Shown here: positions 5,601-58,640 of the stretch, piece after piece | Layout: each line of letters opens with the position of its first letter | How positions within the stretch are numbered: the stretch's first letter is position 1 | Assembly (NCBI RefSeq): GCF_041260155.1 | Contig: NC_091945.1 | Coordinates: forward strand, 31,316,296 to 31,380,295 | Origin: Ptychodera flava | Taxonomy: Eukaryota; Hemichordata; Enteropneusta; Ptychoderidae | Length of the DNA: 64,000 nt | Reading direction: 5' to 3' | Made by a program: the position numbers and the translations under genes | The notes under the pieces: generated by a model | Databases searched by the model: none | Told to the model about the DNA's origin: nothing | What the model saw: the letters and a program-made list of their open reading frames with translations, nothing else

Positions 5601-8600
5601 GGAATAAAAAAAACTAGACATTTAGGCACAAAGGCATTGCAGAGTTATAGCCTGTCAAAACTTCTGAAAAACTGACCAAATAAGAAGAAGTTGGGGAGTC
5701 TTTAGTGTATTAACTATGGTAGAGGTCCCCTAGCTTTTAATAAAATGTTTGAAAAGGGAAAGTCATTATTTGCTATTTTTCAGGAATGTTTGACAAGGTG
5801 GTGCTGGCATTCAGAGTGAGTGGCTGCTATTGTAAATGCATTTTTAGATTCTTTGAGTGTCAAAGAGGTGTCAAAAGTGAGATCAACCAAAAAAACTGCT
5901 CTATGACTTCAAAAGAGGGGTGCAAATATGGCTTGTTTTCAACATTTTTGACAGAATAACAGTTTTCCTACATAATTGTATACCAATTTAATCCAACTTT
6001 GAAATGAGATATGGACATGGAATTTTTACAGCCTATTAACAATGTTACAGATAAGATTTGTAAGGCTAAATTTACCTGTATTTGAAGTACTTTTTGAAAA
6101 ATCGAATTTTGAAATTTGAAAGAATTTTTAATAATTTTTTGATATATAAACCCATGTAAAATCATAAAAACAAATTTTATTTACAAATCCTGCCGTACAA
6201 ATCTTACAATAAATAGTGTCAACATATTTATAACTAATTTGGTAATATTAATACTATCCAATTATTATTAAATTCAAATATGTAAAAAAATATGAAAATT
6301 TAAGTTTTTATATTGATTGGTGTCATATTTCAAAATCATGGCTGCAAATATACAATTTTAATCACAACTGGAAGTTGTGATATAGAGGTGGTTTCAACCG
6401 GTGTTTGATGTCGTCCATTTCCGTAAACGACAAAAAGTCAAAAACTGCTGAACAGACTGCGTTGATATTTGGTACAGATACATAGACTGGTTCCAAGGTT
6501 CCAATTCCGAAAAATGGAGCCAAACGGAGCGGAGGTTATATAGTTTTGGGAAATTTCTAACCCCCTTTTTAACTAATTGATTTTAGGGGTCTTTCATATA
6601 TGTAGTTTTGGAATGTACACCAATCCTGCATTGTGGACTGTTTTATGAGTTGTGGAACAGAAATGAGGTTTTGATGAATGTTAGAAATATGCAGGATGGC
6701 TGATTCAAAGTATAAGAGATTTCTATGCTCTTTTGGGTATCAAAAGCATAAAAAAAACCATATTTCATAGTTTAGATTCTCACTTTTGAGATGACCCTAA
6801 GCATTTGTTATGTAAAACATCCTTGAGTCATATACAGACTTTGACATTCCTGAGATTAAGTATCCACGACCTCACATGTTACAGTCTTTCACTACCATGG
6901 TATGGCCCAAACCCATTGTTATCAATGGTGAGTGTGGACCTGTCTACAGGAAATTGGGGTGAACAGGTTAGACAATGCCATGATAAGTTGTAGGTTAGTT
7001 ATCAAGGTAGCACCAGCATAGAGTCCTACGCATGTCCATGTGTTCTCACAGGAAATTACAGGGAAAAAAATTATTTGAGAAGTTTCTCTCCTTTAAATAG
7101 AAGTATATTACAATTTAAACCTGTCATGGATGGATTGCTCTCAAATGATCTGAAACACAGTTATTGCCCATTAGCAACAAGTCTATAGCAAGATTTATGT
7201 ATAGTTCATGGACTTACACAAGGTATTAGACAAAAGATGACCATGACTTTGCTACTTTTCAACATTTATTTCATTCAGATTTCCTCAGCTTAGTGTATAA
7301 TTTTGTAATCTTAATTACTGTCAACTTAGCTTTACTAACTTATTCTAACCTCATTATTCTTACACTACTGTTATACCGAGATGCATATATGATTGTCACT
7401 TAACAAACAATTTACAAATATGTCTTCTGCTTTTTTCTCCATATACATATACATGTCCCTTTTCTCATAAAAATGGGCTTAAAATCGCAATGTGAAAAAT
7501 AGTCTTTCAGCTGTATGTTGCTCATTGACTTCGTGGTCTGTCTAATTAGTCCCCACGGACACCGTCCGGGGGGGACTTATAGGTTTGGTCATGTCCATGT
7601 GTGCGTGCCTGCGTCCGTGTGTGCATCCGTCCATCTGTTCACGCAGATATCTCAGACATGCCCTGGTCAATTTCTTTCAAACTTTGCACAAGGATAGTAC
7701 CCTACCCCATACAGATGCACGTCGATTTGGCCATGTTAGAGGACTTTTTAGTTTACACCACCATAGACTACCATGTATAAGTCAGCTGTCTATAGAATCC
7801 CATGTATAAGGCCAAGTAAAATAAAAATTTAGTTTCTCATCATATTCATATTGCAAAAAGGATTCAGTGACACAGTTTTTAGTCCCCATGGATGAAGTCC
7901 AGGGCCTTATAGATTGGGTCATGTCCCTCCGTTCACGCAGATATATCAAATATTTTGACAAAATCTCCCATGACCTCAGTGACCTTTGACCTCAAATATA
8001 CATATTTGTCCATAACTCAGTAACCACAAGTGCTACACCCTTCATATATGGTATGATGGGACACCTTATGACGCCACATATTGTACCTCATTAATTATGT
8101 GCATATCTAATTTTGAGCGAGCCAATAGAGCTAGGTCTGATTTTTGGTATATAGGGATGACTTAGCAATTCAATTTTTTTTGACAAAATGTCACATGACC
8201 TCAGTGACATTTGACCTGAAATATACATATTTGTCCATAACTCAGTAACCACAAGTGCTACACCCTTCATATATGGTATGATGGGACACCGCATGACGCC
8301 ACATATTGTACCTCATTAATTATGAGTAGTTTCACAATGTGCCAGTTGTGATCAAGTGCCATTGGCGCTATTTTTATATCCTTTGGAGAAAATATTAACT
8401 AAGGGAGTTATCCTGAAAATTTGAACTAAATATCTTGATTCTAACACTTGAAACTTGACATTAACTGTGAGAAAAGAATTGGTGCAAAAATAGCCTATCC
8501 AGCCACCTTAACTCTTAGGAGAAAAATAAAATTGTCGATTTTCGAAAAAACTAAGAGGGTAAAAACTTTTCTTACACCAAGAGCTTTATCAACAATTGTA

Positions 8601-11600
8601 AAAGTTTGAGAGTCTGATTAGCTATCCCTGAGGCATGTTCTAACTAAGTAAGAATTTTAAAACAAAATGCTTGGGTTTATTAAGGCATCTTGTGAGACTG
8701 TCTGATGCTTTAGTATGTAAAACCAGCATTGAAAGCTGTTGATTTTTTTCCTTTGAATTTTTTAATTAAATGAATTTGTTTGGTTTCACTTCCAGCCCAA
8801 ATCAGAGTTTACTCACTTGTCTTGAAAATGTCAAGGGATATCTCCAAACTGACGGGACTTGCAAGTGTGGACTGGAGTGCCCTCTTGTGGTGCACAAAAT
8901 CTTCAACTTTGATGTCAATGTCCTCTCAAAGCAGAGGACGACTGAAGACCTGAAGAAAGACGATGCTCTCACAAATTTGTGCAATCATAAGAGGAAGATC
9001 ATTGCCATGGCAACGCTGCAAAGTAGCGTAGAGGAGCCACCTATCAAGACGAGTGGAGCACTCACAAATGCATGCATTGAAGAAACAGCACAGTCCAAAA
9101 TCAGAACTGGTAAGCAGTCTCAGATAATTAGTACATTTAGATTTGTTCTGAATTTCATACCCACTGACTTTACTTTCCCTACATTATCAGGTGTTTGAAA
9201 GAAAGTTTATTGATGCTCAAGAAACGCTGCCAACAAAATGGGTTTAAACTTTTGAAACTTGAACTTTGCATTTGCTAGCACTGAAGGTTTTGAAAGAGAA
9301 ACATTTTGTGCATATCAGAATTCTCCATTGATTGGAAATGGAAAGGTAATCTTCACAAATACTAAGGTTGATGTCTGAAGATTAAGAAAGCAACACTGCA
9401 GATAATTACTTTCAACGGAGATTGTAATTTACAGAGAGATGTAGACATTTCCCATTACAAATAAGCCAGAAGATATTTTCATAATTATATGATGTTGTTA
9501 CATCTTGTCAGTTTCCCTTGATGCAGTCCTTTTAGAAAGCTTAGGGTTGATAATTGGATAGCCAGTTGTCACACTGTCAATCTTAAGCAAATCCGTGTTA
9601 CTTTACAAATATTGCAAGAATTGAAAGTGTTTTCTGAAAATATGTGTTTAACCACTACTGACAGTGATCCAACTGTGATTTTGAAGATCTGTCATTATTA
9701 CAAATGGGGGACCATTTAATTTTTCACTCTGCTTTTGATTGCTAAATAATGTCTTTGGTGAATCAGGAAAATGTCAAGGAACATGTCAATGACGAAAACT
9801 CCTTGAATTACAGTTGACATGAAAGCATATCATGCCTGTCATGACGCTAAGCTTTTGTTTAGGACGCCTTTAACAAAATATACCTCCTAATAACAACACT
9901 GTATGACTTTTGTTATCAGCAGGAAGTACCATAATTTCAGTTGAACTTGAGTCATACATAGGTTTGTTTTTGTTTACAATGGCTGGTTGAATACTCATTC
10001 AGTGTTAAAAGGGTAAAATATTAAATCTATATTTATAACATAATTTTCATTTGTTCTGTTGCAGGTTCTTCAAGACAGGCATCGTCGAGAACTCGTCCTA
10101 GGGCACGTTCAAGAAAGAAAGCACCAAACCCCAGTGCACTACATCACTACCCAAACATGTCAGTGTATGAACTGCTAGCAATGAGAGGTGAAAGGCCTCC
10201 GTCAATAACCAATTTACACCCATCGTTACCAAACATACCGTTTGATCATCATCTTCAGCAGCACAGCATCCAGGTGCAGCAGTTCCAAATACAGCAGCAA
10301 CTCCAGATGATCCAACAGAAGCAGCAGCACCATCACCACCAACAGCAGCATATGTCTGGCTGCCTTGACCCACAGAATCCTAAAATGAACTTTGACCAGA
10401 GAAGCATGTCTCCAGCTTCTGCCAAGTCACCGATGAGGTCTCCTCTTCATTCACCTCTTCGGTCTCCGTCAACAAAATCACCAATAAGGAATCCGTTTGA
10501 TTTTATCATGCCAGAGGTAAATCCGGACTGTTCTGTGGATCCAGCACAAAGAACCCTTGGCAATCCTTTCATGAAAACATCACCGATGAGGAAAAGTCCA
10601 GTTTGTGCAGGCTTTCCTTCCACCCCAACCCTGCGGCAAACACCCAGTCCAGGGAGGTCATTGCCAAGTCCTAGTCTGTCAATTAACAAACAACGTAGCC
10701 CCGTTTCTAGTGAACGCAGCAATTCCAGTCCTCTTCAAAGTCCAAGAGAGACAAACCCAAATGTTGGGTCAGTTAGGAGTAAATCTGCCACTGAGGACTC
10801 ATCTGGGAATGGAAATGTTCCTGTCACTATACCGTTACCCAGCAATTTGATGCTTCCAGCAACCAGACAACAGCAGTCTGAGAATAAAACTACCACAGGA
10901 ACGCCCGGGCCAGATACAAGTTGTGGCACATCAAGTCCCACTCCAACAACAGAGTCTGTGACCACCACCACAGCCAGTCAAGGCAACCAAGCTTTGCTTT
11001 CCTCAGTGCTAACAAAACTACTTCCATCTGCTCCCATCTCAAGTACTACGGAAAAGATCCTTTCCACCATGAACCCAGCAACATCATTGCAAGGCAAGAG
11101 TGATTCAGTGATTCTGGAAGATAAAATGAAAACGTTCATCCAACAGCAGAATGACTTGACAAAGTCGCTGCTAAATAACTATGTCCAACAGGCGAATGAG
11201 ACAAAAAGCAAACCAGGTATGGCAGGAATAACTCTGCAGCAGATTTTCAGCCAGCAAAACCCAGTCGCGTTTCCAGCAAGCAGTTTGTTGTCGGCAGCTG
11301 CCAAAGCACAGATGGCCAGTCAGTCATCTCAAGCCAACACCACATCCCTCCTAACAAATCCAACGGACACTGGAAGTTCAAGGACTTCCATGATTTCTGG
11401 AATGGGAATGGAAATTCCCAGCTCAGCGTGTAGCAGTGGAGATGGTGTTTCTTCGGCAGTTTCGCTGACAAATGTGTTGCCAACAAACACCAGTGTGCAG
11501 CTTACTCAGACTACTCAATCCACAAGTGCACATACTGGCCGACCCACCGACCAGGATAAATTGAAGTGGACCACCAAGGTGAACAATGTTTCCAAGGGTG

Positions 11601-14600
11601 GAAATCCACACAACATGATGTTTGGTTCCGTAAAAGTAAGTTCAAATTCGTTTGTGCCACCTAGACAAATGACTGATATGTCCATAATGAAATTAAACAC
11701 TGCCATTCTTGGGATGAAAAGTGGACAAAAACTCTTGCATGGGAGTGTGATGGATAAATCTCCGATAGAATGTCTAGAAAGCACTGTTAAAAGCATTGAA
11801 TCTTACAAAGAAGCTGATGTTGTTACCAACTGCACAGCCGATTCAGGGTCAGTCACTTCTGAGCTATCTCATGTTAAACTTTCTGATTCTGTGCTTGTAC
11901 AGGAAACTGAAAGTTCAATTCCAAAGTGTCCAAAAGTGGTGTGTCTCAAACCGGCCAGCTGGTTAATACTGAAATGATGGTTGAAGGGCAACCTCTCCGA
12001 GAGCAAATGAACGTCTCCCCGAGACGCGATTTTTATGGTCCAGCTCATACTGTTAGTAGTGGGATGAACTTGATGAATGTTGCTAATGACAATCAGGGTG
12101 CAAAGACAGCGAATATGTTGGGCAATACTTTACCAAACCGAGATGGTGCTATTCATATCAGTGCATCCACTGGAATGCAAGCAAACAGAACAATGCCTGC
12201 AAACGTGCAAACTAGTTACCCTTTACAATACATGCAAATGAACCCGGCAGTACAGGGCGGTGCTATGGCCTTCCAGGGCAACTTCGGTGAGTTGAATCCA
12301 CAGCAGGTCAACCTTATGATACAACAGCAAACCATGTTCCAAAAACAGCAGCAGCTGCAACAGCAGCAGCAGCAGCAACAACAACTTCATAACAATGTGT
12401 TTTTCAATAAATCTATGCAAGTGTCTTGCAATGTTGGCATGCCAACAAACGCCAATGAACCCATGAACATGAATGTCGCGATGATGATGAATCCGGCAAA
12501 CAGGAACATTCAGGTGGCTGATGGCCGCGGTGTAGCAACCCCAAACATGCAACATTTCCCACCGGGTTTTATGGCCCATGGTGGCCAACAGCAACAACCT
12601 CAGCTGCCGCAGTGGTCACCCCAGCAGATGCAGCAACAACAACAACTACAGCAGCAGCTGCAACAACTCCACCAGTCCCCTTCATCCCTCCCTGCCCAGT
12701 TTGTGAACAATCCGATGAATCCATGTGATAATTTTGTCCCCATTGTACCGGCAGCGGCCAAGAAACAGATGCGACAGCAAGGAGGAAATTTGCCATTTAA
12801 CATGGGTCCCATGAATCTGAACAATCCAATGTTTTGTCAATTCCAACAACAAAGTAATAATAATCCGGGGAATATTCCTATGTCAAGGATGAATATGTTG
12901 AAAAATTTTACGACAATGAACAAGCAAATGTTTCCTATGCACCAACAGCAGCAGATAATGGGAGAAAATGTTGTACTTCAAAACAAGCCAAGCCCGGTTA
13001 TGAATCAGTGTACGGATCATAATGCCATGCAACAGATTATGAACCATAACTTTCAGATAAACCCTAGTCCCAATTCTGGGAATGTCAATGAAACAGCAAA
13101 TGTAGGACATCAGCAACCAAACAGGACAGTGCCTGTCACAAATCCAGTAAACATGTCAGGGAAAACATCCCCAAGAGGAGGAACAGGAGGGGTGACTCAG
13201 TCAAAGCCAAGGGGACAAAGGAAACCAAAGGAAAACCCTCTTTCACAGAGGCCAAAAAGCAATCCCTCCTCCTGTAATGCAGAAATCGATGCCATATATA
13301 AAGCAGTTGTTGATGCTGCCAACTCAGGTGTTCGGGTTGTGATCACAGGAGAGAAAAAGGGTGAAAGGTCATCCGCAGCTAAGGGTGATAGTTCAGCTGG
13401 TTCAAATGCAGAAACAGCAACGACAGAGACAACAACTTGCACAACTTCTGCAACACAAGCGTCATCTGTGTCTTCATCGCCGCCATCATTATCATCATTG
13501 TCATCATCATCATCAGCAGAACACAATAATGAGAGTGCCTTGACAAAACCTAGTCCAGAGTGTGACAGTTCAACTGCAGCAGCGAGTGAATCAGTGGATG
13601 TTCGCACTCCATGCTCTGATACTGCCCAGCAAAACCAACAGTCAGTTTCAGAGAACCAGCAGACAGGACAACACAACTCAACGCCGCAGGATTCAAATCA
13701 AAGTGACAATGAATTGAATCAGGATAGAACGAATGAAACAGAAAACTTTAAAAATGGAGATGTACAAACAAATGATGTAGATCAGTCAAGTACTAATGAG
13801 GGCAGTGCCTTGCCTGTCACAACTGCAAATAATTCTGTGGATATGGTGCACTTCAGGTGTGCTGAGGAACAAGCTGACAGCTCAAAAGGGACCAGAAATG
13901 GAAGGGTGTGTGATTCTGACATTGGTAAAAATACACCCACTAAAATGAGTACTAATGTTGATAACACTAAAAGTGAAACTACTTACAAGTCAAATAACTT
14001 TTCAGAAACTCACATGTTTGACAACATGGCTGGTTACCAGATTAATAACAGGGAGGCAGTACTCGGGAAGGAAAACATGAAAGACAGTAAAAGTCTGCTG
14101 ATGAGGCAACCTGAACACTCTGTTTTGGCCAATTTACATCACAGCAGTGATGCTGTGGACTCTCTGAGAAATGACCTGCATTTCGCTGAGGATGGTTGCA
14201 TGGATGGATATGATGATGGTGATGATGATGATGATATTTACGATGATGAAGAAGACGATGACGAAACTAATGATGCTGAAATGATTTCCAGGCAGATGGG
14301 AGGTAATTTATTCATTTTATATACTGCTGTAGAATTTGAGAGGCGCACTCTCAAGATACACAGAGTGTACTTTTTTAAATGCCTATTTGTGTGCCACAGA
14401 ATACTGAAAGTTTCAAGTTTTGGCATCCTTGTTGATGATTTTGTCATTCCTCTCAGGTCAGTAGTGTAGTTCTGCCAGCACACAAGGAAATTTCATGACA
14501 GGGCCGCACTGGGGGTATTTATTACCTGAAAAATTCTGCACTCAAAAGCAAAGCAAACCTGATAATTATCCTTTTTTGCCCGTTTGTAATTTACCGAGCA

Positions 14601-17600
14601 ATTTCCCAGGGGAGGAAATCAAGAGGATCCATTGATCCATTGATTGATGCAATAATTGCATCTATACAAAGAAATTATTAAGTAAGAGTAATTCCAAAAC
14701 ATACACATCAAAGTTCTGTTTATGATGATTGCTAATCTCAGGGGAGACACAGGTCAACGAAGCTTGCAGATTGGCTTCAGAACATTTCAAGATAATTTAA
14801 ATCAAAGGATGTGAATTTTTGTTCCTTAAATTCACTAAATATGTAATTTGTGCAGTTTTGATATAGGATGGTACAATATGTATGTCCCCCCTAATGTTTA
14901 CCAAATTTATTTTTATAACCCTTGACAGTGGTCAGAGAATTGTTTATTTTTCAAATGCATCAGTAGCTATGAAATAACCTGTTCAGCCCCATTTCAACTA
15001 GCTGCTGCATATACTCAGTCTGTGTTTGTGAATCTGGATATTATGGAATTGAGGAGAACTGCAGATATTACAGAGTAAAAGGACTTAATCCAAATAAATG
15101 TGACAGTTTTTATCAATAATCTGAAGTTGTTTGATATCTTTTAATAAGTCTTTCAGAAATTAAATGTATAAGATCGATGAAAATAGTACCTTATTGCAAT
15201 GAATGTTCCAGTGGAAACCTAAAAATCACATGTTAAATGCCCTTAATACAAGTCGCAGCTAGCAGTTGGTCAATACATACTCAAAGCAGACAAAAATTTG
15301 TCCACATTTCTGAAGGCAACAGCCAATTTTACACAGGTAATGCTGTGTGTTTAAACAAACCAGCAATCCCAATCAGAGCTATGGCTAGACTAGAAAGTAT
15401 TGGTATCATTGTCAAAGGGATTTCATGCCACAAAATAATTTGTTTTCCAGTCCACTCGTCAAAAGTGCAAAATTTAGCTGTTCTTCCATTGATTGCATAG
15501 AGAAGAAGAAGAGACCAATATGTGTAGACAGTGCTTCTCCATATATTTCCAGTTGGCATGAAAAACTAATACATGTAATGAGAGCTCTGGCTGTTCAACA
15601 AATTCTTTAAGATTTGATGGTGACAGTTGACCTGTTTGACCTACTCCCAAAGGAGCTGAATGGTATTAAAAGCCGCCCATTGTTAATGATGCCATTATTG
15701 TAAACAATTTTGAAAATTACTTAATGTTTGAGATGCACTTTTTTATGTCATTGTTGTGTTTATGATTGATTTGCATTCTTGTCATTTAATGGCAGAACTA
15801 ATTTCTGTCGTATAACAATTAGTATGCCTTTTACCACTCCCAGTCTGTAATGCATTCCATCATACAATGCTAACATTGTGATTTCTGTTGTCTGTGTTAT
15901 TCAGACATAGAAAATCCTGACTCGCCAGACTTCATAGACTCCAGTCTGCCAAGGACGTTCGACCTAGGCGACCTCGTATGGGGTCAGATTCGAGGTTTCC
16001 CATCATGGCCTGGAAAGATCGTTGCTGAAAATGATGTCAAGCTCAAGTTGAATAATGCAGAATCAGAAGAAGGGAAGGTAGGTTTCCAACAAACAACACG
16101 TTATTAGAAATATCTAATCAAATTTCAAAACCTTAATTGATAGAGTTACTATTTTAGAGCATGTAAGAACATCATCTTCCACCTGAAAAATGTGAATATA
16201 AAGTTATTATATTATGAGGAAAGTATCCTTTGATAAAGTAAACTCCATTTGCAATAAATTACTAAAAAGATAAAAAAGTACTGTTTTGCAGTCATTGTAA
16301 CTGCGAGTTGTGTTGGATGCCAAAGGTATTTACTTGATGTACCAAACGATAAGAAAATGTTTTGTATCATCAGCCTTGTGAATCAAATCTTCTCAGTGTA
16401 TTATTAGTAACATTATTGTTAAATAGAACAAGAAACATTAATTCTGTATCCATTTTACTGAATGAGATTACTATATTTTTCCATTTAAATTTTGTAAGGA
16501 TAAGTATAGTAGAATTATTGTATCCGAATTATTGATGTGATAATATCATGGCTGTGTAGTCATTTTACTTGCTACAAATGTGTTTACAATGAAAGAAATA
16601 TTGTGGCATTAACGTACATGTATCATTTATTGGTGGTTTGATGTGTTTAAAGTTACCAATGTTCTCATTTCATGTGAGTGTAGTATTTGATATCCGTAAC
16701 GTTTCCCTGATCCGTAAGAAATAAATTAAGAAAGTCTTTGTTGTCTGTTACTTTTGAAAGAGGATGAATCAAGATAATGCTACTGTGATTAGTATTTGAG
16801 GAAACCGATGCTCTCATTTCTCATTTATGTATAATGTGTTTGCAACCGATATCTGTCTGGTCCGTTTCTGTGTTCAGATTGGGCTCAGGTTGCTGTAATC
16901 AAGTATACCATTTTCATTATTGAACCTTCACAAACTCAATTTATTCAGGGCATCATTATCTTAATACCAACCACTCAGAATATCCATGGTGATTGCTCCC
17001 TTTCTTTATACTCATGTTCATTGGCAAAAGTGATAATGTAAAGAGCACATTTCAGTTTTCACAAATGGAGAAAAAAAAAAAACTAACTTTTGATTTGTTT
17101 CATCTAGAGTTTTATTACTGATTGATAAACAACATGGATGCAAGCAACTATGAATCGGTATTTTGATTTTTATTGTATGAAAAACAATAAACTTGCAATG
17201 TTACATGTATTCATTATCTGGCCATATACTTAATGAGAGTGCATATTTTTACCAGCAGGGCTGTCTAGTCTACCTATTTGAAGTGGTAATACACATCCAC
17301 TCATGATTATATACAGTTTTTAACATTGATATTGTTGCTTACACTTTTAAAGTTGATCAGAATGTGCACAGATGCATCCCGACAATGCAGAAACACTAAT
17401 TACATTTAAGAATTCAAATGACATAAAGACAGTGCTTTTTATAAGTTGTACATGTGCAAGAGAAAATGGTGAAATTAGTATAGATTGTAGACATGCTTTA
17501 TCCCTTGACCAGCAATACAACGTATAGTATAACATGCTTGCACTCAATGCCGGTAAGACAGAGGTTGTACATTTTTCCTCGAAATTTTGGATTAAGGGAA

Positions 17601-20600
17601 TTGTCCCTCGTTGTAATTTTCGGATTTGTGATGTCAGTGTACCGGTATATCCATCTGAATCAGTTCGCAATCTAGGTGTTACAATGGACTCTGCCTGCAC
17701 CATGTCAGACCATGTTACAAATATTTGTAGATCAGCATCACATGCGATTTGGAGGTTAGGAAAGATTCGTGATGTTCTTGACCAGCGTACCACGGAGAGG
17801 CTTGTTCATGCCTTCATTACAACACGTTTAGATTATTGCAGCAGTCTTCTTTTTGGTCCCCGAACTTTGAAATACGTAAACTCCAGGCTATTTAAAATTC
17901 AGCCGCTCGGCTTGTTAGCAGAAAGAAGAAAAGGGACCACATAACACCAGTACTACAAAATTTACATTGGCTTCCAGTCCAGAAACGAATTGATTTTAAG
18001 ATTCTTTGTTTCACATACAAAATCATTACAGGCCAAGCGCCTGACTATCTAGAAGAAATGCTTACAGTACGTCATACTGGTCGTACACTTAGGTCCCAGT
18101 CTAGTGGTGTGATCATTTTGCATCAGCATGTTTGCAACACGGCTTTTTATGGCAATAGAGCCTTTTCTGTATGTGCTCCCCATTTGTGGAATGCTTTACC
18201 ATTTGAGATAAGGCTTGCTAATTCATATAACAATTTTAGAAGTCAGTTAAAAACTTCATTTTATTCCTAGACATTTTTAAAATTTTATCTCTTTGCGTTT
18301 TATCGGTGTTTTCTCGCAATTTTTATTTACAACTTACCTCTTTTTAGTCCCCACGGACACTGTCCGGGGGGACTTATAGGTTTGGTCATGTCCGTGCGTG
18401 CGTGCGTGCGTGCGTGCGTTCGTCCGTTCACACAGATATCTCAGAGATGCAAGAAGCGATTTCATTCAAACTTGGTACAAGGATTACTTCATATGTCATA
18501 CAGATGCACGTCGATTTGTTTTGGGATACGATCCAATATGGCCGCCAGGCGGCTATTTTATTACGATTTTTTCAATGTACAGAGCCATAACTCAGACATG
18601 TTTCAACCAATTTTATTCAAAGTTGGTACAAGGACATTGACCAATGTCATAGATATGCACGTCAATTTTTTTTGTGATACGATCCAATATGGCCGCCAGG
18701 CGGCCATTTTATTACGATTTTTTCATGTACAGAGCCATAACTCAGACATGTTTCAACCAATTTTATTCAAAGTTGGTACAAGGACATTGACCAATGTCAT
18801 AGATATGCACGTCAATTTGTTTTGTGATACGATCCAATATGGCTGCCAGGCGGCAATTTTTTATTACGATTTTTTCACGTACAGAGCCACAACTCAGACA
18901 TGTTTCAAGCGATTTTATTCAACGTTGGTACAAGGACATTGACCACTTTCATAGATATGCACGTCGATTTGTTTTGTGATACAAACCAATATGGCCGCTA
19001 GGCGGCCATTTTATTACAATTTTTTCATATACAGAGGCATAACTCAGGCATATCTCAACCGATTCTATTCAAAGTTGGTACAAGGACATTGACCAATGTC
19101 ATAGATATGCACGTCAATTTGTTTTGTGATACGATCCAATATGGCTGCTTTGTGGCCATTTTGTTACGATTTTTTCATATACAGAGGCATAACTCAGGCA
19201 TATCTCAACCGATTTTATTCAAAGTTGGTACAAGGACATTGGCCTATGTCATACATATGTACGTCGATTTTTTATGTGATACGATCCAATATGGTCGCTA
19301 GGCAGCCATTTTATTACAATGTTTTCATGTACAGAGCCATAACTCAGACATATTTCCACCAGTATCATTCAAAGTTGACATTGACCTATTTCATACATAT
19401 GCTCGTCAATTTGTTTCATGTCATGTAGCAGTAACATGTCAATTATTGAAGTTTTGGAAGTAGGCTGATATGTCAAGAAATATGTACTGCATCAAATTCA
19501 TGAAACTTTATACAGATGTTAACTGATGTTAAGCTCACATTGCTTTAACATTGAAAAAGACATTTATCAGTGTCATTTTAATTAATTTGTAATTGCATAA
19601 GTAATGAACTTTCCTAATTAGGGTGATATAGCCACAAATTAATACAACGTCAAATGTGATGAATCTTGATACAGATGTTGATCTCATAGTGTTGTAAATA
19701 CTGCATCAAACTTTAGGAAATATGGTACCAGTGATAATCTGTTAAGTGTTAGAATTGTATGCAAAAATGTTTTGCAACATCCTGTTGATTAATTCCTAGT
19801 TGACTCATTTTATGAACTTTAGGATGGTGGCCTACATTGGTTCTATGTTTTCATCACCATGGAACTCATTCTTGGCCATTGAGCGCCATCTGTATCAAAG
19901 TATTTTTATCACAGACCTAATTAATGAAGAGGACTCTATCCTCTCTGAGGACATGTAATCAAAGTACCCATTATTAACAAGTGGGGACTGTGTCATCAAC
20001 GATGACTTGTTTAGTGTTGTGTAAAGCGCATTGAGATTTTTAAAATGTAATGCGCCCTATAAGAAATAAATATTATTATTATTATTATAATGTGTGACAG
20101 AGATATATATGTAGGAAGGAATTCAAATATTGATCCTGTTATGATGCAATATCACAAACTATGTTCTAACATAATTAATTACTTCACTTATGTCAAATTG
20201 ACAAAAATCTTTAATCAGTTGATTCTGGATGTATTTCTTTCCATTAGTCAAAGTAATACAATCACTGCAACACCTTTCTACCCATGATAAGGCAAAATTA
20301 AGTGTCAATCAAGGATAGATTGTTCAGGCTAAATCTATGAATATGAGAGGCAAGTTCCCCCTTGCAAGATACTAGGATTTTGCAAATTTTCTCTGTGTAA
20401 AGAGTCATTGACAACATGAACATATAGCAAAACATCATATTATGAGACTCCCTGACAATGTACATGTGCTCACCAATGTACCCTAAAAATGCTGTGTGTA
20501 TGTACCTTAGTTGTGGTTCTGACGCTCTTCTCTTTGAAGTTGACTTTATTGCAGAGAACAACAGTTTCTAGCCCCAGTACCTGTAATTATTGATGCTTTT

Positions 20601-23600
20601 CCACTACTGGTATATATGTTCTGTTTGTAAATTATAGTTTCTTGTTCTACCCCTAAATCATGCTGAAATGCCTAGCACTCAAATTGTCATCACAGCCTAT
20701 ATAATGTTCAATTTCATCATTGACAACTGACTTTTAGTTTACCCAAAAGTCATATATCATTTGTCTCATTGTACACATTGCAAGGTCATTACCTCATGTT
20801 TCACATTATGTAGAAGAGAATATACTTGTCTACTAGAACAAAAATAATTAAAAAATTATGACAAGATAAAACCATTGATTTTTAGCTCCCATAGCCATAT
20901 GTATATATGGCAATGGAAGCTATTCTTATAGGCTAGGGAAATGTCTGTATGTATGTATGTCTGTGTGTCTGTATGTCTGTATGTCTGTATGTCTGTCCGT
21001 CAAGATCAAAAACTCCAAAACCGCTGTACATTTCATCTTGATATTTGGTGTGTACATAGATGATGGGCTGTAGATGAGATTTTGTTCAAATGAAGTTGTC
21101 ATTGCCAAAAATATGCAAATTAAGTGAAAAAATGTAAAAACAGTCAAAATTAAAAAAACTCAATAACCACTGAGCAGATTACATGAAAAATTGGCATGTA
21201 AGTACTTTGGGCTAACATGAAATGATTGTGCACATCTTGGGTCAGTATCTTGGACTTGCTATTTTTCATGAATTTTTTTGTAATTTTCTCCCATTTTTGG
21301 TCAAAAAATCTTCTTTTCTGAAACCACAAGTCCGATTGATTTGAAACTTGGTATGGAAGTGCATAGGAGTGACCTTTCCCAAATTTGGGCAAATCGTGGT
21401 GAAATTTGCATATTTTTAGTTTACACGTCCATAGACTCCCATGTATTAGGCAGATCTCCATAGACTCCCATGTATAAGGCCACGAAAAATAAAAATTTAG
21501 TTTCTCATCGTATTCATATTGCAAAAAGGATGCAGTGACACAATTTTTAGTCCCCACGGATGAAGTCCAGTGGGCTTATAGATTGGGTCATGTCCGTCTG
21601 TTCGTCCATCCGTGAGTCCATCCGTTCACGCAGACATCTCGGATATTTTGACAAAATGTCATGTGACCTTGATGACCTTTGATCTCAAATATACATATTT
21701 GTCCATAACTCAGTAACCACGAGTGCTACCACCCTTCATATATGGTATGATGGGACACCTTATGACGCCACATATTGTACCTCATTAATTATGCACATAT
21801 CTAATTTTGAGCGAGCCAATAGAGCTAGAGGTCTGATTTTTGGTATATAGGGATAACTTAGCAAAACAATTTTTTTGACAAAATGTCACGTGACCTCGGT
21901 GACCTTTGACCTCAAATATACATATTTGTCCATAACTCAGTAACCACAAGTGCTACACCCTTCATGTATGGTATGATGGGACACCTTATGACGCCACATA
22001 TTGTACTTCATTTATTATGCGCATATCTAATTTTGAGCGAGCCAAGAGAGCTAGAGGTCTGATTTTTGGTATATAGGGATAACTTAGCAAACAATTTTTT
22101 TGACAAAATGTCACGTGACCTCGGTGACCTTTGACCTCAAATATACATATTTGTCCATAACTCAGTAACCACAAGTGCTACAGCCTTCATGTATGGTATG
22201 ATTGGACACCTTATGACGCCATATATTGTACCTCATTAATTATGCGCATATCTAATTTTGAGCGAGCCAATAGAGCTAGCGGTCTGATTTTTGGAATATA
22301 GGGATAACTTAGCAATACAATTTTTTTGACAAAATGTCACGTGACCTTGGTGACCTTTGACCTCAGATATACATATTTGTCCATAACTCAGTAACCACAA
22401 GTGCTACACCCTTCATGTATGGTATGATGGGACACCTTATGACGCCACATATTGTACCTCATTAATTATGCACATATCTAATTTTGAGCGAGCCAATAGA
22501 GCTAGAGGTCTGATTTTTGGTATATAGGGATAACTTAGCAATACAATTTTGTTGACAAAATGTCACGTGACCGTGGTGACCTTTGACCTCAAATATACAT
22601 ATTTGTCCATAACTCAGTAACCACAAGTGCTACACCCTTCATGTTTGGTATGATGGGACACCTTATGACGCCACATATTGTACCTCATTAATTATGTGCA
22701 TATCTAATTTTGAGCGAGCCAATAGAGCTAGAGGTCTGATTTTTGGTATATAGGGATAACTTAGCAATACAATTTTTTGACAAAATGTCACGTGACCTCG
22801 GTGACCATTGACCTCAAATATACATATTTGTCCATAACTCAGTAACCACAAGTGCTACACCCTTCATATTTGGTATGATTGGACACCGTATGACACCACA
22901 TACTGTACCTCAACAATTATGCACATATCTCATTCTGAGCAAGCCAATAGAGCTGGATGTCTGATTTTTGGTATATAGGGATAACTATAGGAGAGAAATT
23001 TTTTGACCAAATGTCATGTGACCTCGATGACCTTTTACCTAAAATATATGTTTATGTCAATAAATAAGTAACCACAAGTGCTATGTCCTTTGTATTTAGT
23101 AGGATAGGAGACCTTATGACAACACACGCTTTACTTCATTAATTATGTACACATCTAATTCTGGGCAAGCGAATAGAAATAGAGATCTGATTTTTGGCGT
23201 ATAGGGATAAATTAGCAATATAATTTTTTTTTTCAAAATGTCATGTGACCTCGATGACCTTTGACCTTGATATTATACATATATATGCATATCTCAGTAA
23301 CCACAAGTTCTATACCCTCCAATTTTGATAGGATATTAGACCTTAAGATGTCACATCTTGTACCTCATTTATAATGCGCATATGTATTTCTTGGCTGGCC
23401 AATACTGCTAGAGGTCTGATCTTTTTTCCCGATTTAGAACCATAACTTAGACATGCCTCATGTGTTTCAAATTGGGAACAACGACATAGACCTATGTGCC
23501 CATAGATCTCAACATATACACTCCAGTGATACTTCTTAATGACCACATTTTCCTGCCCCATCAAGACTAATACTCCTATTGCAAGTGGGGACTATGTCAT

Positions 23601-26384
23601 TGTAAATGACTTGTTGAGTTAATTGTTGTATCACAGTATTCGATATATCTAATTCTGTATTTTTTCCATTTTATATTCTGAATAAATACATTAAACATAT
23701 TTCACTGTCTCCAGTACATTACATTTTAAGTATTTTCACTTCATGCACTTTATCCCTTTCACACATGTTCAAATATCTGACCTGAGAACAAACACTAAAT
23801 AGTCCAGGATGGGAGCTACAGTGTCATTGACGCTATTTTTTACATTATTTACTCCCCCTTTCAAAACTTTCCCATGAATTGGGCGCAAGTTGAAAATAAT
23901 TTGTTCCAGTATAAGCATATCAGTAAACTCAGTGGAGGAGCTGCCTGTTGAGTTTTGGGTTATCAGTCGGCACATAATAAAACAGACTCATGTTTAGTTA
24001 AACGCCATATCAATATATATACATAGCAAACTGCTGAGCAAAGTTGCTTGGTAATTACCTAATTGGGCATACAGAATATATCTTGAACACTTTGTTTATT
24101 CATTTATTGACAAGAAGAGACAGGATTATCTTAAATCTCAATTTGTCAGGATAGAATGTTAGAACTTGAACACAGATCAGATATGTTCACACAGTTTGCA
24201 TATCAGATTGTAAAATTTGGTCTTTCTTGACAGGTATGGGTGATGTGGTTTGGTGATCACACATACACGCAGGTTGAACCTGAAAAGTTGAAAACATTAT
24301 CTGAAGGTTTAGAAACGCACCACAGAGCAAGGAAAAGAAATAGAAGGTAAGGCCATACATTACCAACTTGATTCGAATTTGTATAACCCTTTCATTACAG
24401 TAACTCTAGTTTAGTCTACCCCTGTTATCAAAAATAGCTCATTTGGAATATTCTACAAGAAATAGGGATGGCAAGCAAGTAAACATCCTTTATTGTTTAT
24501 TCTCAAACGTGCTGTAGATTTTAAAGTCACCAGTCTCTCAATACAAATTAAATACAATGATATATGAAAACCAGGAAGACAAATATATAAGTAAAGTGAG
24601 TAAAGTGGCAATGTGTGACAGATAGATATGACAAACTCTTATATATATCATATATAATATACCAATATGATTGCTGCATGTTTTTTCTGTGAATGAAAAG
24701 TTTGTTCTTCACCGATTTCTAACTCAGAGGCCGTAAGATGAATAGTCACCTTGAAGCCGCCATTCAGGAAGCCATGATGGAATTAGACAAACAGGTCAGT
24801 ACATCTACTACCCCCAAGCCCTATAGACCCCCTCACTGATCAAAGTTGGTTCAATCCAAATCTTTTTTGTTGCACACATGGATCTGTATACAGGAAAATG
24901 GGTAGGAAGGGTTACAGTGCTTTCATCAGGGAGCCTTGACATTTGACTTTATAATCTTGAAAGCTAGCATAAATCTGTATGTAGTACAGGTTGCCTTTTT
25001 CTTTCAGATGTTATTAGAGGAGTTACATTTCCTCTGGGACACGTTCTTAGCCAATGATACTTTCCTCTAGAGTTGCAATTTTGACATCAATAAATCCTAT
25101 GAAAGTGTTATCCTAACATCTCAGATTTCTTTTAATGGGTTATTTTCAGTATCACTGACCTTGTACAGTCAATCTCAGTAGAGTTACAGATTTCTTCAGA
25201 TCACTTTTCATTCAGATGTGTTTTGTCTGATACTTAAACCTAAAAGTTATCTGCTGTGGACAATGGGTTACAGGTAGCTGTCAGATTGGCCATTTAAGCC
25301 ATTGATTCTCAGGAGACCGAGTGCATTAGGGATGTATATTAATAGAAATTAGTCATTTGATATCCTGTTACAGTGACTACATCACGCATTGCGTTTTGGA
25401 ACAGAAATCTTTAGGTATAATTAGACATCTTGCTGAACAAGAAACAATATGTGGAAATGACAAAACCCTTTATCATTGACTTTCTTAATGATCAAGGAAG
25501 CGTATTAAACATAAAGGTGCATATGAATTTTCCAGTGTTTATACATAAAAAAAAGGTGTACGCATCACTTTTCTGCTAACACTGCGTTGGATAACTTTCA
25601 CCATAGATAAACTTATCATTAGACCTTGATCATAGGTTTTTAAAACAAATAACTGTTAACTTAAAGGTAGTTTGTGCCTTGGAAATAAATTACTTCTCAA
25701 ACTTTCCTTCAGCAAACTTTCAACCATACTCTTTTGAAGTCAAGAATAACAAATTTGGGTCACAGTGCAAATTTTGCTTCTAGGGAAAAATTACCCAGTT
25801 AACCATTATTTGAAATTAGAAATGGCAGCTACCTCTGTGTTATCTCTATTTGGAAACTAAGCTGTTGAAAATTTTATTTACTTCATTAGCTCCAAAATGA
25901 GCCCCCACCAGTGGTAGGCCAAAAGAGTAATGTAGAAGTTTTAGAGTCTGAATATCTGTCCCTGAGGCGCATTCTACCTTTACTCAGGAGATGCCTTTTC
26001 CTGTACATTTTACTGTTATTTTTGTTTGTTCAGTGTTTCTAATACCACAAGGAGGTAACATTGTTTTCCATGAAGTATGACTTTAATATGGTTAGTGTAA
26101 ATTTGCAAATCCATACATACTGTGCACTTGATCTTTACAAACAATCATAAATTTTGAAGTTGAAACATGTCAAGACTCTGTCAAATTGTCAAATTCACTA
26201 TCCCATAATCAAACTCTTACAATTGCTTGAGATAACTGTGAAATGCTCTTCTATACTACCAAATGTGACTTCTAATCTGGGTAAACTAATGAACGCTTTG
26301 CACCATTCTTTTCAGCCACTGGATTCTAAACCAAAGGGTTTCTACAAATCTCGGCCGAAAATCAAAAGGAGAAAACTCAGGTGA
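2493..26384 (+). CDS. MBD5: MBD5/MBD6-like methyl-CpG-binding-domain protein (7 coding exons)
   Basis: Coding exons are 2493-2683, 8796-9109, 10065-14302, 15905-16077, 24234-24346, 24728-24794 and 26316-26384, all with GT..AG borders and matching phases. The product is about 1,720 residues, against roughly 1,500 for human MBD5. An MBD domain (about residues 42-115: VPFGWQR, then [17 protein letters not shown]) is followed by a long Gln/Asn/Ser/Pro-rich middle, an acidic run and a PWWP domain ([16 protein letters not shown], then [20 protein letters not shown]). The C-terminal helix reads [16 protein letters not shown] and the tail is basic (KRRKLR). MBD5 and MBD6 form the family that combines these parts. 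Family members are known to bind PR-DUB (BAP1) through the MBD and not to read methyl-CpG; this gene may be the single pre-duplication ortholog of MBD5 and MBD6. The large exon changes reading frame near 11.91-11.98 kb (separate entry). The MBD5 symbol is by family; MBD6 is equally possible. Confidence 0.9.
6359..6560. repeat. Hairpin-led dispersed repeat (family unknown)
   Basis: It opens with a small palindrome (ATCACAACT, 3-base loop, AGTTGTGAT at about 6359-6380). A stretch follows containing AAAACTGCTGAACAGA and TTGATATTTGGTACAGA. The same layout, a terminal hairpin then a TTGATATTTGGT block, recurs in the unrelated-looking repeat starting at 20883. The far end could not be placed, and the family is not recognised. 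Confidence 0.35.
7548..8320 (+). mobile_element. Truncated tandem-repeat element, copy A (Helentron/HINE-like)
   Basis: It starts AGTCCCCACGGACACCGTCC with an internal hairpin, GTCCCC pairing with GGGGAC at 7549-7575. A second start (AGTCCCCATGGATGAAG, about 7880) lies inside. Two ~225-bp core units follow, the anchor GTCCATAACTCAG lying at 8008 and 8233. No GTGGGGACT 3' end is present, so the copy is truncated near 8320. It matches copy C at 21549-23615 in its core and also in about 100 bp of upstream flank (about 7770-7876 against 21420-21548). Confidence 0.6.
8796..9109 (+). CDS. MBD5: MBD5/6-like exon 2, second half of MBD domain
   Basis: Residues 64-168. It joins exon 1 through a split serine codon (AG|C) to read [20 protein letters not shown], matching the family's YxSPSGTxLxSLEQVK. 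It continues with [19 protein letters not shown], the cysteine-rich signature of MBD5/MBD6. The rest is charged and unrecognised. It ends in phase 1 at donor GTAAGCA. Confidence 0.92.
9110..10064 (+). other. Intron 2 of the MBD5/6-like gene
   Basis: A 955-bp AT-rich intron with a good pyrimidine tract and TTGCAG acceptor. I see no repeat or gene within it. Confidence 0.8.
10065..14302 (+). CDS. MBD5: MBD5/6-like giant exon 3, low-complexity central region
   Basis: At 4.2 kb this is the bulk of the protein. It opens with a basic patch ([18 protein letters not shown]-like), then [21 protein letters not shown] proline-directed array of SPMRSP, SPLHSP, SPLRSP and KSPIRNPF follows at about 10409-10500. 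Long Gln/Met/Asn-rich stretches (about 12290-13080), a Ser/Thr-rich block and an Asp/Glu run (about 14200-14275) complete it. The frame used from 10157 stops at 11977, while the frame used to the end is open only from 11911, so the coding path needs a shift. The 3' end is donor GGAG|GTAATT, phase 1, which fits the PWWP exon. Similarity to vertebrate MBD5/6 is weak here. Confidence 0.85.
11911..11979 (+). other. Reading-frame change inside MBD5/6-like exon 3
   Basis: The upstream frame (open from the exon start) ends with a stop at 11977. The downstream frame begins after a TGA at 11908-11910 and stays open to 14302. Possible causes are a one-base assembly error, a true frameshift, or a 278-bp intron from GTAAGT (11636) to an AG at 11912-11913, which joins phase 0 to phase 0 and restores frame. 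The best-looking acceptor nearby (TTGTACAG, 11902) does not restore frame. No choice can be made from this sequence alone. Confidence 0.6.
14303..15904 (+). other. Intron 3 of the MBD5/6-like gene
   Basis: A 1.6-kb AT-rich intron ending in TGTGTTATTCAG. Short open frames inside it show no domain, and I see no repeat. Confidence 0.8.
15905..16077 (+). CDS. MBD5: MBD5/6-like exon 4, N-terminal half of PWWP domain
   Basis: It encodes [17 protein letters not shown], then [19 protein letters not shown]. The PWWP signature is present as PSWP, and the aromatic residues expected for a methyl-lysine cage region are retained. Phase runs from 1 to 0 with donor GGAAG|GTAGGT. The family has the same split PWWP next to an acidic linker. 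Confidence 0.95.
16078..17530 (+). other. First part of intron 4 of the MBD5/6-like gene
   Basis: AT-rich intron sequence with no gene or repeat that I can identify. The intron continues to 24233 and is filled mainly by the LINE and tandem-repeat elements listed next. Confidence 0.75.
18346..20011 (+). mobile_element. Tandem-repeat element copy B, 150-bp units (Helentron/HINE-like)
   Basis: The left end is AGTCCCCACGGACACTGTCC, with its own hairpin, followed by a short GTGC microsatellite at about 18391-18418. About six and a half ~150-bp units follow; the anchor CATAACTCAG recurs near 18587, 18737, 18888, 19038, 19188 and 19338. Unique sequence then leads to GTGGGGACT (19981-19989) and a hairpin GTCAT-5-ATGAC (19992-20006) before TTGTT. 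Short subterminal inverted repeats, central tandem repeats and a 3' stem-loop are the known design of Helentron-type non-autonomous elements. No protein is encoded. The insertion splits an L2-like LINE, which fixes both ends. Confidence 0.65.
18430..19420. repeat. 150-bp tandem repeat array (~6.5 copies)
   Basis: This is the core of element B. Each unit contains ATAACTCAGACATGTTTCAA, a GTTGGTACAAGGACATTG block and the near-perfect palindrome ATGGCCGCCAGGCGGCCAT. The period is divisible by three, so the array stays open in some frames over long distances (for example 18382-18942); these frames are repeat artefacts, not genes. Confidence 0.8.
20089..20882 (+). other. Intron 4 spacer between elements
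   Basis: AT-rich intron sequence after the LINE tail, with no gene or repeat that I recognise. Confidence 0.6.
21549..23615 (+). mobile_element. Tandem-repeat element copy C, 226-bp units (Helentron/HINE-like)
   Basis: The left end is AGTCCCCACGGATGAAGTCC. The right end is GTGGGGACT (23585-23593) plus the hairpin GTCAT-5-ATGAC (23596-23610) and TTGTT. The hairpin stem is identical to that of copy B while the loop differs, so the stem looks conserved. About eight ~226-bp units lie between. No open frame looks protein-coding. The ends match copy B but the internal units differ, so these are two subfamilies sharing termini. Confidence 0.7.
21640..23500. repeat. 226-bp tandem repeat array (~8 copies) with receptor-type sites
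   Basis: The anchor GTCCATAACTCAG is at 21701, 21928, 22153, 22379, 22605 and 22830, with decayed copies near 23055 and 23286. The order in each unit is GTCACGTGAC, a TGACCT half-site, TGACCTTTGACCT (a DR1 on the minus strand), CATAACTCAGTAACCACAAG, then CTAATTTTGAGCGAGCCAAT. The central units are most alike and the 3' ones most decayed. Confidence 0.85.
23819..24233 (+). other. End of intron 4 of the MBD5/6-like gene
   Basis: Unique AT-rich intron sequence leading to acceptor TTTCTTGACAG. Nothing else is seen. Confidence 0.7.
24234..24346 (+). CDS. MBD5: MBD5/6-like exon 5, C-terminal half of PWWP domain
   Basis: It encodes [20 protein letters not shown], then [18 protein letters not shown], with phase 0 to phase 2. 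VEPEKLKTL(S/T)EGLE and RxRKRNRR are near-identical to vertebrate MBD5. This confirms that the PWWP halves are joined across the 8-kb repeat-filled intron. Confidence 0.95.
24347..24727 (+). other. Intron 5 of the MBD5/6-like gene
   Basis: A 381-bp AT-rich intron with no visible feature. Confidence 0.8.
24728..24794 (+). CDS. MBD5: MBD5/6-like exon 6, conserved C-terminal helix
   Basis: It encodes [20 protein letters not shown], then DKQ. The same helix (GKLNNHLEAAI.EAM.ELDK) follows the PWWP domain in vertebrate MBD5/6. It enters with a split arginine codon and leaves in phase 0 at donor GTCAGT. Confidence 0.93.
24795..26315 (+). other. Intron 6 of the MBD5/6-like gene
   Basis: A 1.5-kb AT-rich intron with no recognisable gene or repeat. 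It ends in CATTCTTTTCAG. Confidence 0.8.
26316..26384 (+). CDS. MBD5: MBD5/6-like terminal exon, basic tail
   Basis: It encodes [20 protein letters not shown] and ends LR before TGA (26382-26384). The Lys/Arg-rich end resembles the PKRRK terminus of vertebrate MBD5 and could act as a nuclear-localisation signal. Phase 0 fits exon 6. The exon is short, but the acceptor is strong and the match at the tail is good. Confidence 0.8.
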   Translation, partial: PLDSKPKGFYKSRPKIKRRKLR

Positions 26385-35582: not shown

Positions 35583-35735
35583 ATGAGTAAGTTGTCGTTC
35601 CGGGCACGGGCATTGGATGCCACCAAACCAATGCCCGTGTATCATAGCCATGAACTACCGGACTTGCCAGATTACTCAGCAATTAATAGAGCGGTTCCCC
35701 AAATGCCGACTGGGATGGAAAAAGAAGAGGAATCG
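35583..35735 (+). CDS. EPC2: EPC exon 1, start of EPcA domain
   Basis: Residues 1-51: MSKLSFRARALDATKPMPVY, then ELPDLPDYSAINRAVPQMPT and GMEKEEES. Almost identical to vertebrate EPC1/2. The ATG context is ATCATGAG. It ends in phase 0 at donor GTGAGT. Confidence 0.97.
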
Positions 35736-58333: not shown

Positions 58334-58509
58334 AGAAATGTAAAAATGTGTCAAGTGTGTCTTTATGTCATTTATATTCCTCTTTCCAACAGTTGAAGAC
58401 TTTCATAAAGTTTCTGAAGGATAGGCATGTACACCAGTGTTCTCCGTGAATAAACAAAATTTGCATTCACCGTAATATTCCAATAACTTAGAAGAACGCA
58501 TAGAACGAG

Positions 58510-58640
58510 TGCATTGAATTGTGAAGGTCAAGAGGTCAAAAGTCTGTGCATTGAATTGTGAAACAAAAGGCCAAAAGCCAGTACATTGAAGCTTTAAGGT
58601 CAAAGGGCCAAAGTCAGTACATTGAAGAGTGAGGCTCAAG
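58510..58640. repeat. ~36-bp degenerate tandem repeat
   Basis: About four units beginning GCATTGAATTGTGAA or ACATTGAA and containing AAGGTCAAAGGGCCA-like segments. The repeat leaves one minus-strand frame open by chance. Confidence 0.6.

Follow-up and report, generated by a model that had tools for sequence, protein, structure and literature searches.

DR1 and E-box motifs of a 226-bp satellite in Ptychodera flava, most probably passengers of an intronic HINE-type element

A 226-bp tandem array in an intron of the hemichordate Ptychodera flava carries, on the minus strand of several of its units, a perfect DR1 nuclear-receptor site next to the palindromic E-box GTCACGTGAC, which raises the question of whether a mobile array has brought working regulatory sites into a host gene or whether the sites merely travel with their carrier. 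We analyzed the surrounding stretch of 64,000 nucleotides of contig NC_091945.1 at its full length, here called the window. The locus is very likely an ordinary satellite-carrying HINE in the intron of an MBD5/6-like gene, with a founder unit that held the sites and with the sites now present as passengers. The repeat units of the window fall in two loci.

21646 to 23425, plus strand: tandem array of a 226-bp unit, 7.9 copies (B1 to B8; Tandem Repeats Finder, 89% matches).
7548 to 8324, plus strand: copy A, a mosaic carrying about 1.65 units, with 5′ ends at both 7548 and 7881; a 3′ end was not found in it.

The second stretch of units, that of copy A, covers 7953 to 8324. Ten units from the two loci (A1, A2 and B1 to B8, with A2 and B8 incomplete) were aligned. 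Mutual identity among B1 to B5 was 94 to 97%, and B6, B7 and B8 matched the seven close units (A1, A2 and B1 to B5) at 88 to 92%, 77 to 81% and 77 to 79%, respectively; B6 to B8 are referred to as the three older units. The left neighbour of the array is also common to both loci, as 7745 to 7880 matches 21413 to 21548 at 89.7%. Exact strings from the 226-bp unit or from its sister array had no match in viral or prokaryote contig collections, as expected for an animal repeat. Each unit contains a 28-bp motif block.

21658 to 21685, minus strand: motif block of B1, CATGTG, DR1 with one mismatch.
21885 to 21912, minus strand: motif block of B2, exact E-box, exact DR1.
22110 to 22137, minus strand: motif block of B3, exact E-box, exact DR1.
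22336 to 22363, minus strand: motif block of B4, exact E-box, exact DR1.
22562 to 22589, minus strand: motif block of B5, exact E-box and DR1, third half-site altered.
22787 to 22814, minus strand: motif block of B6, exact E-box, DR1 with one mismatch.
23013 to 23040, minus strand: motif block of B7, CATGTG, DR1 with one mismatch.
23240 to 23267, minus strand: motif block of B8, CATGTG, exact DR1.
7965 to 7992, minus strand: motif block of A1, E-box lost, exact DR1.
8190 to 8217, minus strand: motif block of A2, CACATG, DR1 with one mismatch.

String searches of the whole window placed exact copies of GTCACGTGAC at 21885, 22110, 22336, 22562 and 22787, with a single exact copy outside the array at 35961, compared with a mean of 0.04 per window in 100 window shuffles. 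Exact minus-strand copies of AGGTCAAAGGTCA were found at 7980, 21900, 22125, 22351, 22577 and 23255, compared with a shuffle mean of 0.00 per window. A preliminary description of this DNA had listed an E-box in five consecutive units and a DR1 in four of them plus 23255 and 7980, and all of these motif coordinates were right. It had also placed an AGGTCA three bases past the DR1, which held for four of its five E-box units and failed in B5, where this half-site is altered; read from the alignment rows, the third AGGTCA is present in nine of the ten units. The CLEAR sequence GTCACGTGAC was exact in five of the ten units, carried a single CpG mismatch in four (CATGTG at 21658, 23013 and 23240, CACATG at 8190) and was lost in one (A1, 7965). 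A DR1 proper, with two AGGTCA half-sites at 1-bp spacing, was exact in six units and had one mismatch in the other four, and both motifs were exact together in four of ten.

Neither exact motif arose in any of 2000 shuffles of unit B4, and the presence of the sites in one random unit is above chance. As all ten units derive from a single founder, they represent a single event multiplied by tandem duplication, not ten independent matches. The wider window is also rich in DR1-like strings, which occur with at most two mismatches at 10 places outside the units, compared with 1.83 in all in the shuffled whole window. In composition counts that leave out 7548 to 8324, 18346 to 20010 and 20882 to 23620, AGGTCA was over-represented (44 vs 29.2, sd 4.9) and CACGTG depleted (2 vs 6.2, sd 2.6) relative to dinucleotide shuffles. 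The AGGTCA excess and the 10 DR1-like strings together indicate that half-site words are common beyond the array. A panel of known consensus sites gave seven entries in the 226-bp unit against 0.9 in shuffles, but this test was given no weight because the panel included the array's own motifs, the very ones under study. Removal of DR1, loose DR1, DR3, CLEAR and the I-SceI half left two entries, RUNX and HIF, and the HIF core is part of the E-box.

Five TGAC/GTCA cores lie within the first 40 bases of unit B4. The DR1, the third half-site and the E-box arm may be read as overlapping variants of one short repeated word, which would make their co-occurrence less remarkable than that of three independent sites. 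It is conceivable that this TGAC-rich patch serves the element or the array itself, for example in recombination or replication through its palindromes, instead of being a transcription factor site. Such a role would agree with the array of A and that of B each beginning some 12 bp ahead of the palindrome and with the density of the cores, since five within 40 bp recur outside the array only at 55091 in the window. However, single-strand DNA folding of the patch in B4 was not clearly better than that of shuffles on either strand (z −1.03 and −0.29), and we regard this explanation as unlikely.

A different alternative is that the array acts as a regulatory platform, on which HNF4/RXR/COUP-TF-class and MiT/TFE factors bound to the spread DR1 and E-box sites change host gene expression. 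The exact sites in tandem speak for it. To follow how the 28-bp block has changed, cells of the alignment of ten units were compared with CpG cells separated, together with sliding windows, circular shifts and a unit tree. Because the cells are not independent, all p values of these comparisons are rough, and the consensus leans toward the close units. Against a regulatory platform, the ten-unit comparison gave no excess conservation of the block, with 20 of 280 block cells changed vs 124 of 1868 elsewhere (p=0.70), 10 of 240 vs 111 of 1812 at non-CpG cells (p=0.31), and 4 of 130 vs 111 of 1812 for the DR1 alone (p=0.18). Also against it, the block was the more changed part of the seven close units (14/196 vs 26/1304, p=0.0003), mostly through CpG, the non-CpG cells giving 6/168 in the block vs 22/1266 elsewhere (p=0.13). 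In favor of it, the block was relatively spared in the older B6 to B8, both overall (6/84 vs 98/564, p=0.016) and at non-CpG cells (4/72 vs 89/546, p=0.014), with 2/39 vs 89/546 for the DR1 alone (p=0.07). In these three units none of 200 sliding windows was less changed than the block, with ties starting at 7 to 13 (the block being 13) and at 182; this is the one result that favors the retention of sites proposed in the preliminary description. The results for close and older units point in opposite directions. In the full set of ten, variability is lowest in the 28-bp windows that begin at 55 to 56; these contain CCATAACTCAG and lie outside the block, which also argues against a regulatory platform. 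Of 227 circular shifts, 40 equaled or undercut the E-box in the number of distinct non-CpG changes, 59 the DR1 and 40 the block. As six of the seven inner branches of the unit tree are open, ancestral unit states cannot be set. T17 and A27 are common to B1, B7 and B8 in the alignment rows, and CATGTG, rather than CACGTG, may be the older form of the E-box.

The E-box has changed in the manner of the other CpG-containing sequence of the unit. CpG cells were changed about four times as often as non-CpG cells (23/96 vs 121/2052, p=2e-8), and the CpG of the E-box no less than other unit CpG (5/20 vs 18/76, p=1.0); the observed/expected CpG ratio of the window is 0.49. The E-box variants thus match deamination products in four of the five changed units. 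In vitro, TCACGTGA is bound by human MITF, and TCATGTGA moderately less so (PMC10539308). One or the other form is present on one strand in nine of the ten units, so that E-box drift stays within the range of one factor family. Variants of this kind keep a regulatory reading alive without supporting it. Precedents for a regulatory platform are offered by the ISX Helitrons (PMC4384637) and by HNF4alpha on Alu (PMC3252374). Taken with the comparisons above, a regulatory platform nevertheless appears improbable. Retention or delivery of sites for regulation, as the preliminary description had proposed, is unsupported, as the block changes as often as the rest over ten units, its E-box CpG is lost like other unit CpGs, and the least variable stretch lies elsewhere, at CCATAACTCAG. 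More speculatively, a HINE could have seeded the genome with composite DR1 and MiT/TFE arrays, the units being kept within the MITF/TFEB range (TCACGTGA to TCATGTGA) and the intronic copies serving as multi-site lipid or lysosomal sensors; we consider this very improbable indeed.

The favored reading, of passenger sites in a satellite-carrying HINE, draws on the anatomy of the carrier, which is shared with a second element upstream.

21549 to 23613, plus strand: element B, HINE-type, with the central 226-bp array; 5′ AGTCCCCACGG, 3′ AAGTGGGGACT, ends compared with those of C; 3′ limit approximate, after ATGACTTG and before TT.
21549 to 21574, plus strand: 5′ inverted repeat AGTCCCCAC of B with a weak hairpin (−6.5 kcal/mol), TTTTT before it.
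21592 to 21625, plus strand: short degenerate GTCC/GTCY-type run, read by eye and not called by Tandem Repeats Finder.
23583 to 23593, plus strand: 3′ inverted repeat AAGTGGGGACT of B, 9 of 11 bases complementary to the 5′ repeat.
23596 to 23610, plus strand: 3′ hairpin of B, GTCATT-GTA-AATGAC, TTGTT after it.
18346 to 20009, plus strand: element C, with similar ends around a 150-bp array (18459 to 19377); 3′ limit approximate.

The 5′ sequence AGTCCCCACGG is exact at 7548, 18346 and 21549 and has one mismatch at 7881, and AAGTGGGGACT occurs at 19979 and 23583. A 5′ subterminal inverted repeat with a hairpin is found at these 5′ ends, with folding energies of −13.4 kcal/mol in C and −11.7 in A and weaker values of −6.5 in B and −4.2 at the 7881 end. 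The 3′ repeat is complementary to the 5′ repeat at 9 of 11 bases in B and C alike, although the end repeat as an 11-mer with at most two mismatches is not rare in the window (10 found, 4.06 expected). A 3′ palindrome with perfect 6-bp stems is present in both elements and includes one compensated pair, a C-G pair of C corresponding to T-A in B (GTCATC/GATGAC vs GTCATT/AATGAC). Two to five T precede all four 5′ ends, and TT follows ATGACTTG at both 3′ ends. The combination of a microsatellite and central tandem repeats is represented by the CGTG array of C (18393 to 18427) and by both central arrays, and in B by the run read by eye, the relative position of which equals that of the CGTG array. 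The fit to a HINE is incomplete in two respects, since a matching 3′ subTIR of about 11 to 12 bp or more would be expected and the 5′ hairpin of B is weak. This Helentron/HINE-type anatomy supports the proposal in the preliminary description that the array is mobile.

The 9-bp inverted repeats on both sides of B and C would also suit a MITE-like transposon with terminal inverted repeats as the carrier, in place of a Helentron derivative. However, the similarity between B and C continues past the 3′ inverted repeat through the hairpin in these two 3′ ends, and no target-site duplication was seen in the flanks adjoining the repeats, making a MITE-like carrier doubtful at best. Over the 3′ inverted repeat and hairpin, 26 of 32 positions agree between B and C, compared with 9 of 32 in the stretch that follows and 6 of 32 in the one that precedes. 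From this pattern the inverted repeat looks subterminal, and the neighboring parts differ.

The cores of the two elements are largely different. The 226-bp unit as a BLAST query had no match in the 150-bp array of C, and the tail of B to the right of its array (23422 to 23507) matched the 150-bp units at 68 to 71%. The CCATAACTCAG box is common to both cores, with 11 exact matches in the window, all of them inside A, B or C (18585 to 19347, 21703 to 22842, 8010 and 8235), and a box shared in this way by different HINE cores might contribute to the formation of arrays or to transposition. Several 150-bp units of C (18459 to 19377) carry CAATATGGCCGCCAGGCGGCCATTTT or a close variant, which resembles back-to-back YY1 sites. 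Directly to the left of B, 20883 to 21548 shows another HINE-like 5′ end (TAGCTCCCATAG...) with a hairpin of −11.6 kcal/mol and a ATGTCTGT microsatellite, and its last 136 bp recur to the left of the second 5′ end of copy A. Element C is flanked by reading frames (17528 to 18270) and by a GCGC...(ATT)n tail (20010 to 20090). The frames, which had no match in Pfam, resemble the terminal part of a non-LTR reverse transcriptase; together with the tail they would suit an insertion of C into the 3′ region of a LINE.

B and C fit the anatomy described for Cg_HINE of Crassostrea gigas and for DINE-1/HINE, the likeness being one of anatomy. Cg_HINE (PMC7492417) has a 5′ subTIR with an inverted repeat, a GTCY-type microsatellite, a short satellite-like array and a 3′ subTIR with a palindrome, and inserts in T-rich sequence without target duplication. 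In group 2 of Cg_HINE, related ends enclose cores that are unrelated, a situation much like that of B and C here. The consensus units of the 13 Cg_HINE clusters measure 138 to 181 bp, compared with 226 and 150 here (PMC7492417). With DINE-1/HINE (PMC4067079), B and C share what look like subterminal inverted repeats, a 3′ stem-loop, an apparent TT preference and microsatellite or central repeats; the subTIRs there are 12 to 15 bp in mite and 13 bp in Drosophila, with autonomous partners known, whereas 9 bp are shared here.

On the basis of this anatomy, we suggest that B would be a non-autonomous element copied in trans by a Helentron Rep/helicase and spread by rolling-circle replication. Its founding unit would already have held the E-box/DR1 block or a close form. 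The likeness of the close units and the divergence of the right edge suggest that the core grew by unequal exchange or slippage, with the motif block carried passively and the E-box CpG lost through what would be ordinary deamination. In vitro, the intact sites would probably be recognized by their cognate factors; there is no indication that they affect the host gene.

Of the two precedents, Alu, a primate SINE, differs from the array here in not being a tandem array in a Helentron. It is similar in being a dispersed repeat with receptor sites to which HNF4alpha binds, the binding having been measured there (PMC3252374). In Drosophila miranda, dosage-compensation sites have been dispersed by the ISX Helitrons, and ISX/ISY likewise are Helitron-class elements with a binding motif for a host regulator; binding and selection were demonstrated there (PMC4384637), whereas the present motifs have been read in the DNA. 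Full-text searches of one paper collection found no paper joining TGACCTTTGACC with transposable elements and, for nuclear-receptor motifs in invertebrate satellite DNA, only telomere work, judged by title. Satellite-carrying Helentron derivatives are a known route for short tandem arrays through animal genomes. In the present case a founding repeat, complete with perfect receptor and E-box sites, has been multiplied and carried into an intron, providing raw material on which regulatory rewiring could draw, as with ISX and Alu. The window offers such raw material and not evidence of its use.

Both elements lie in one intron of the host gene.

16078 to 24233, plus strand: host intron containing C and B and splitting a PWWP domain (GT/AG exon joints, PWWP match of the joined exons).

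The PWWP domain (Pfam E 1.4e-17) is encoded jointly by the exon that ends at 16077 and the one that begins at 24234. This supports the preliminary description in placing the array in an intron of a chromatin-type gene. The upstream frames (8770 to 14470) look MBD5/6-like in our reading. The 8770 frame had no MBD match in Pfam, and a PDB search gave no MBD match for the MBD5/6-like frame, so that the name rests on the PWWP match and on the analyst's reading. CLEAR elements sit, by definition, near the start of lysosomal and autophagy genes, and B1 to B8 are positioned otherwise, inside an intron within the PWWP domain of the MBD5/6-like gene. An Enhancer of polycomb (EPC) gene has its ATG at 35583 (match to human EPC1 chains, E 5e-21, residues 1 to 51). 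The MBD5/6-like gene (8770 to 24330) and the EPC gene (35583) are adjacent and share a strand. In human, MBD5 lies next to EPC2, and the adjacency may represent an old gene order; a search of the same paper collection found nothing on MBD5/EPC2 synteny. A search of the window against Rfam at gathering thresholds gave no structured RNA match.

Outside the arrays, a lone GGTCACGTGACC palindrome lies at 35961 to 35970, about 0.4 kb past the EPC start codon, and is perhaps a likelier working E-box site than the satellite. Finally, the window holds other tandem arrays, one of 211-bp units at 52929 to 53518 and one of about 36-bp units at 58508 to 58641, the consensus of the latter containing AAGGTCA.
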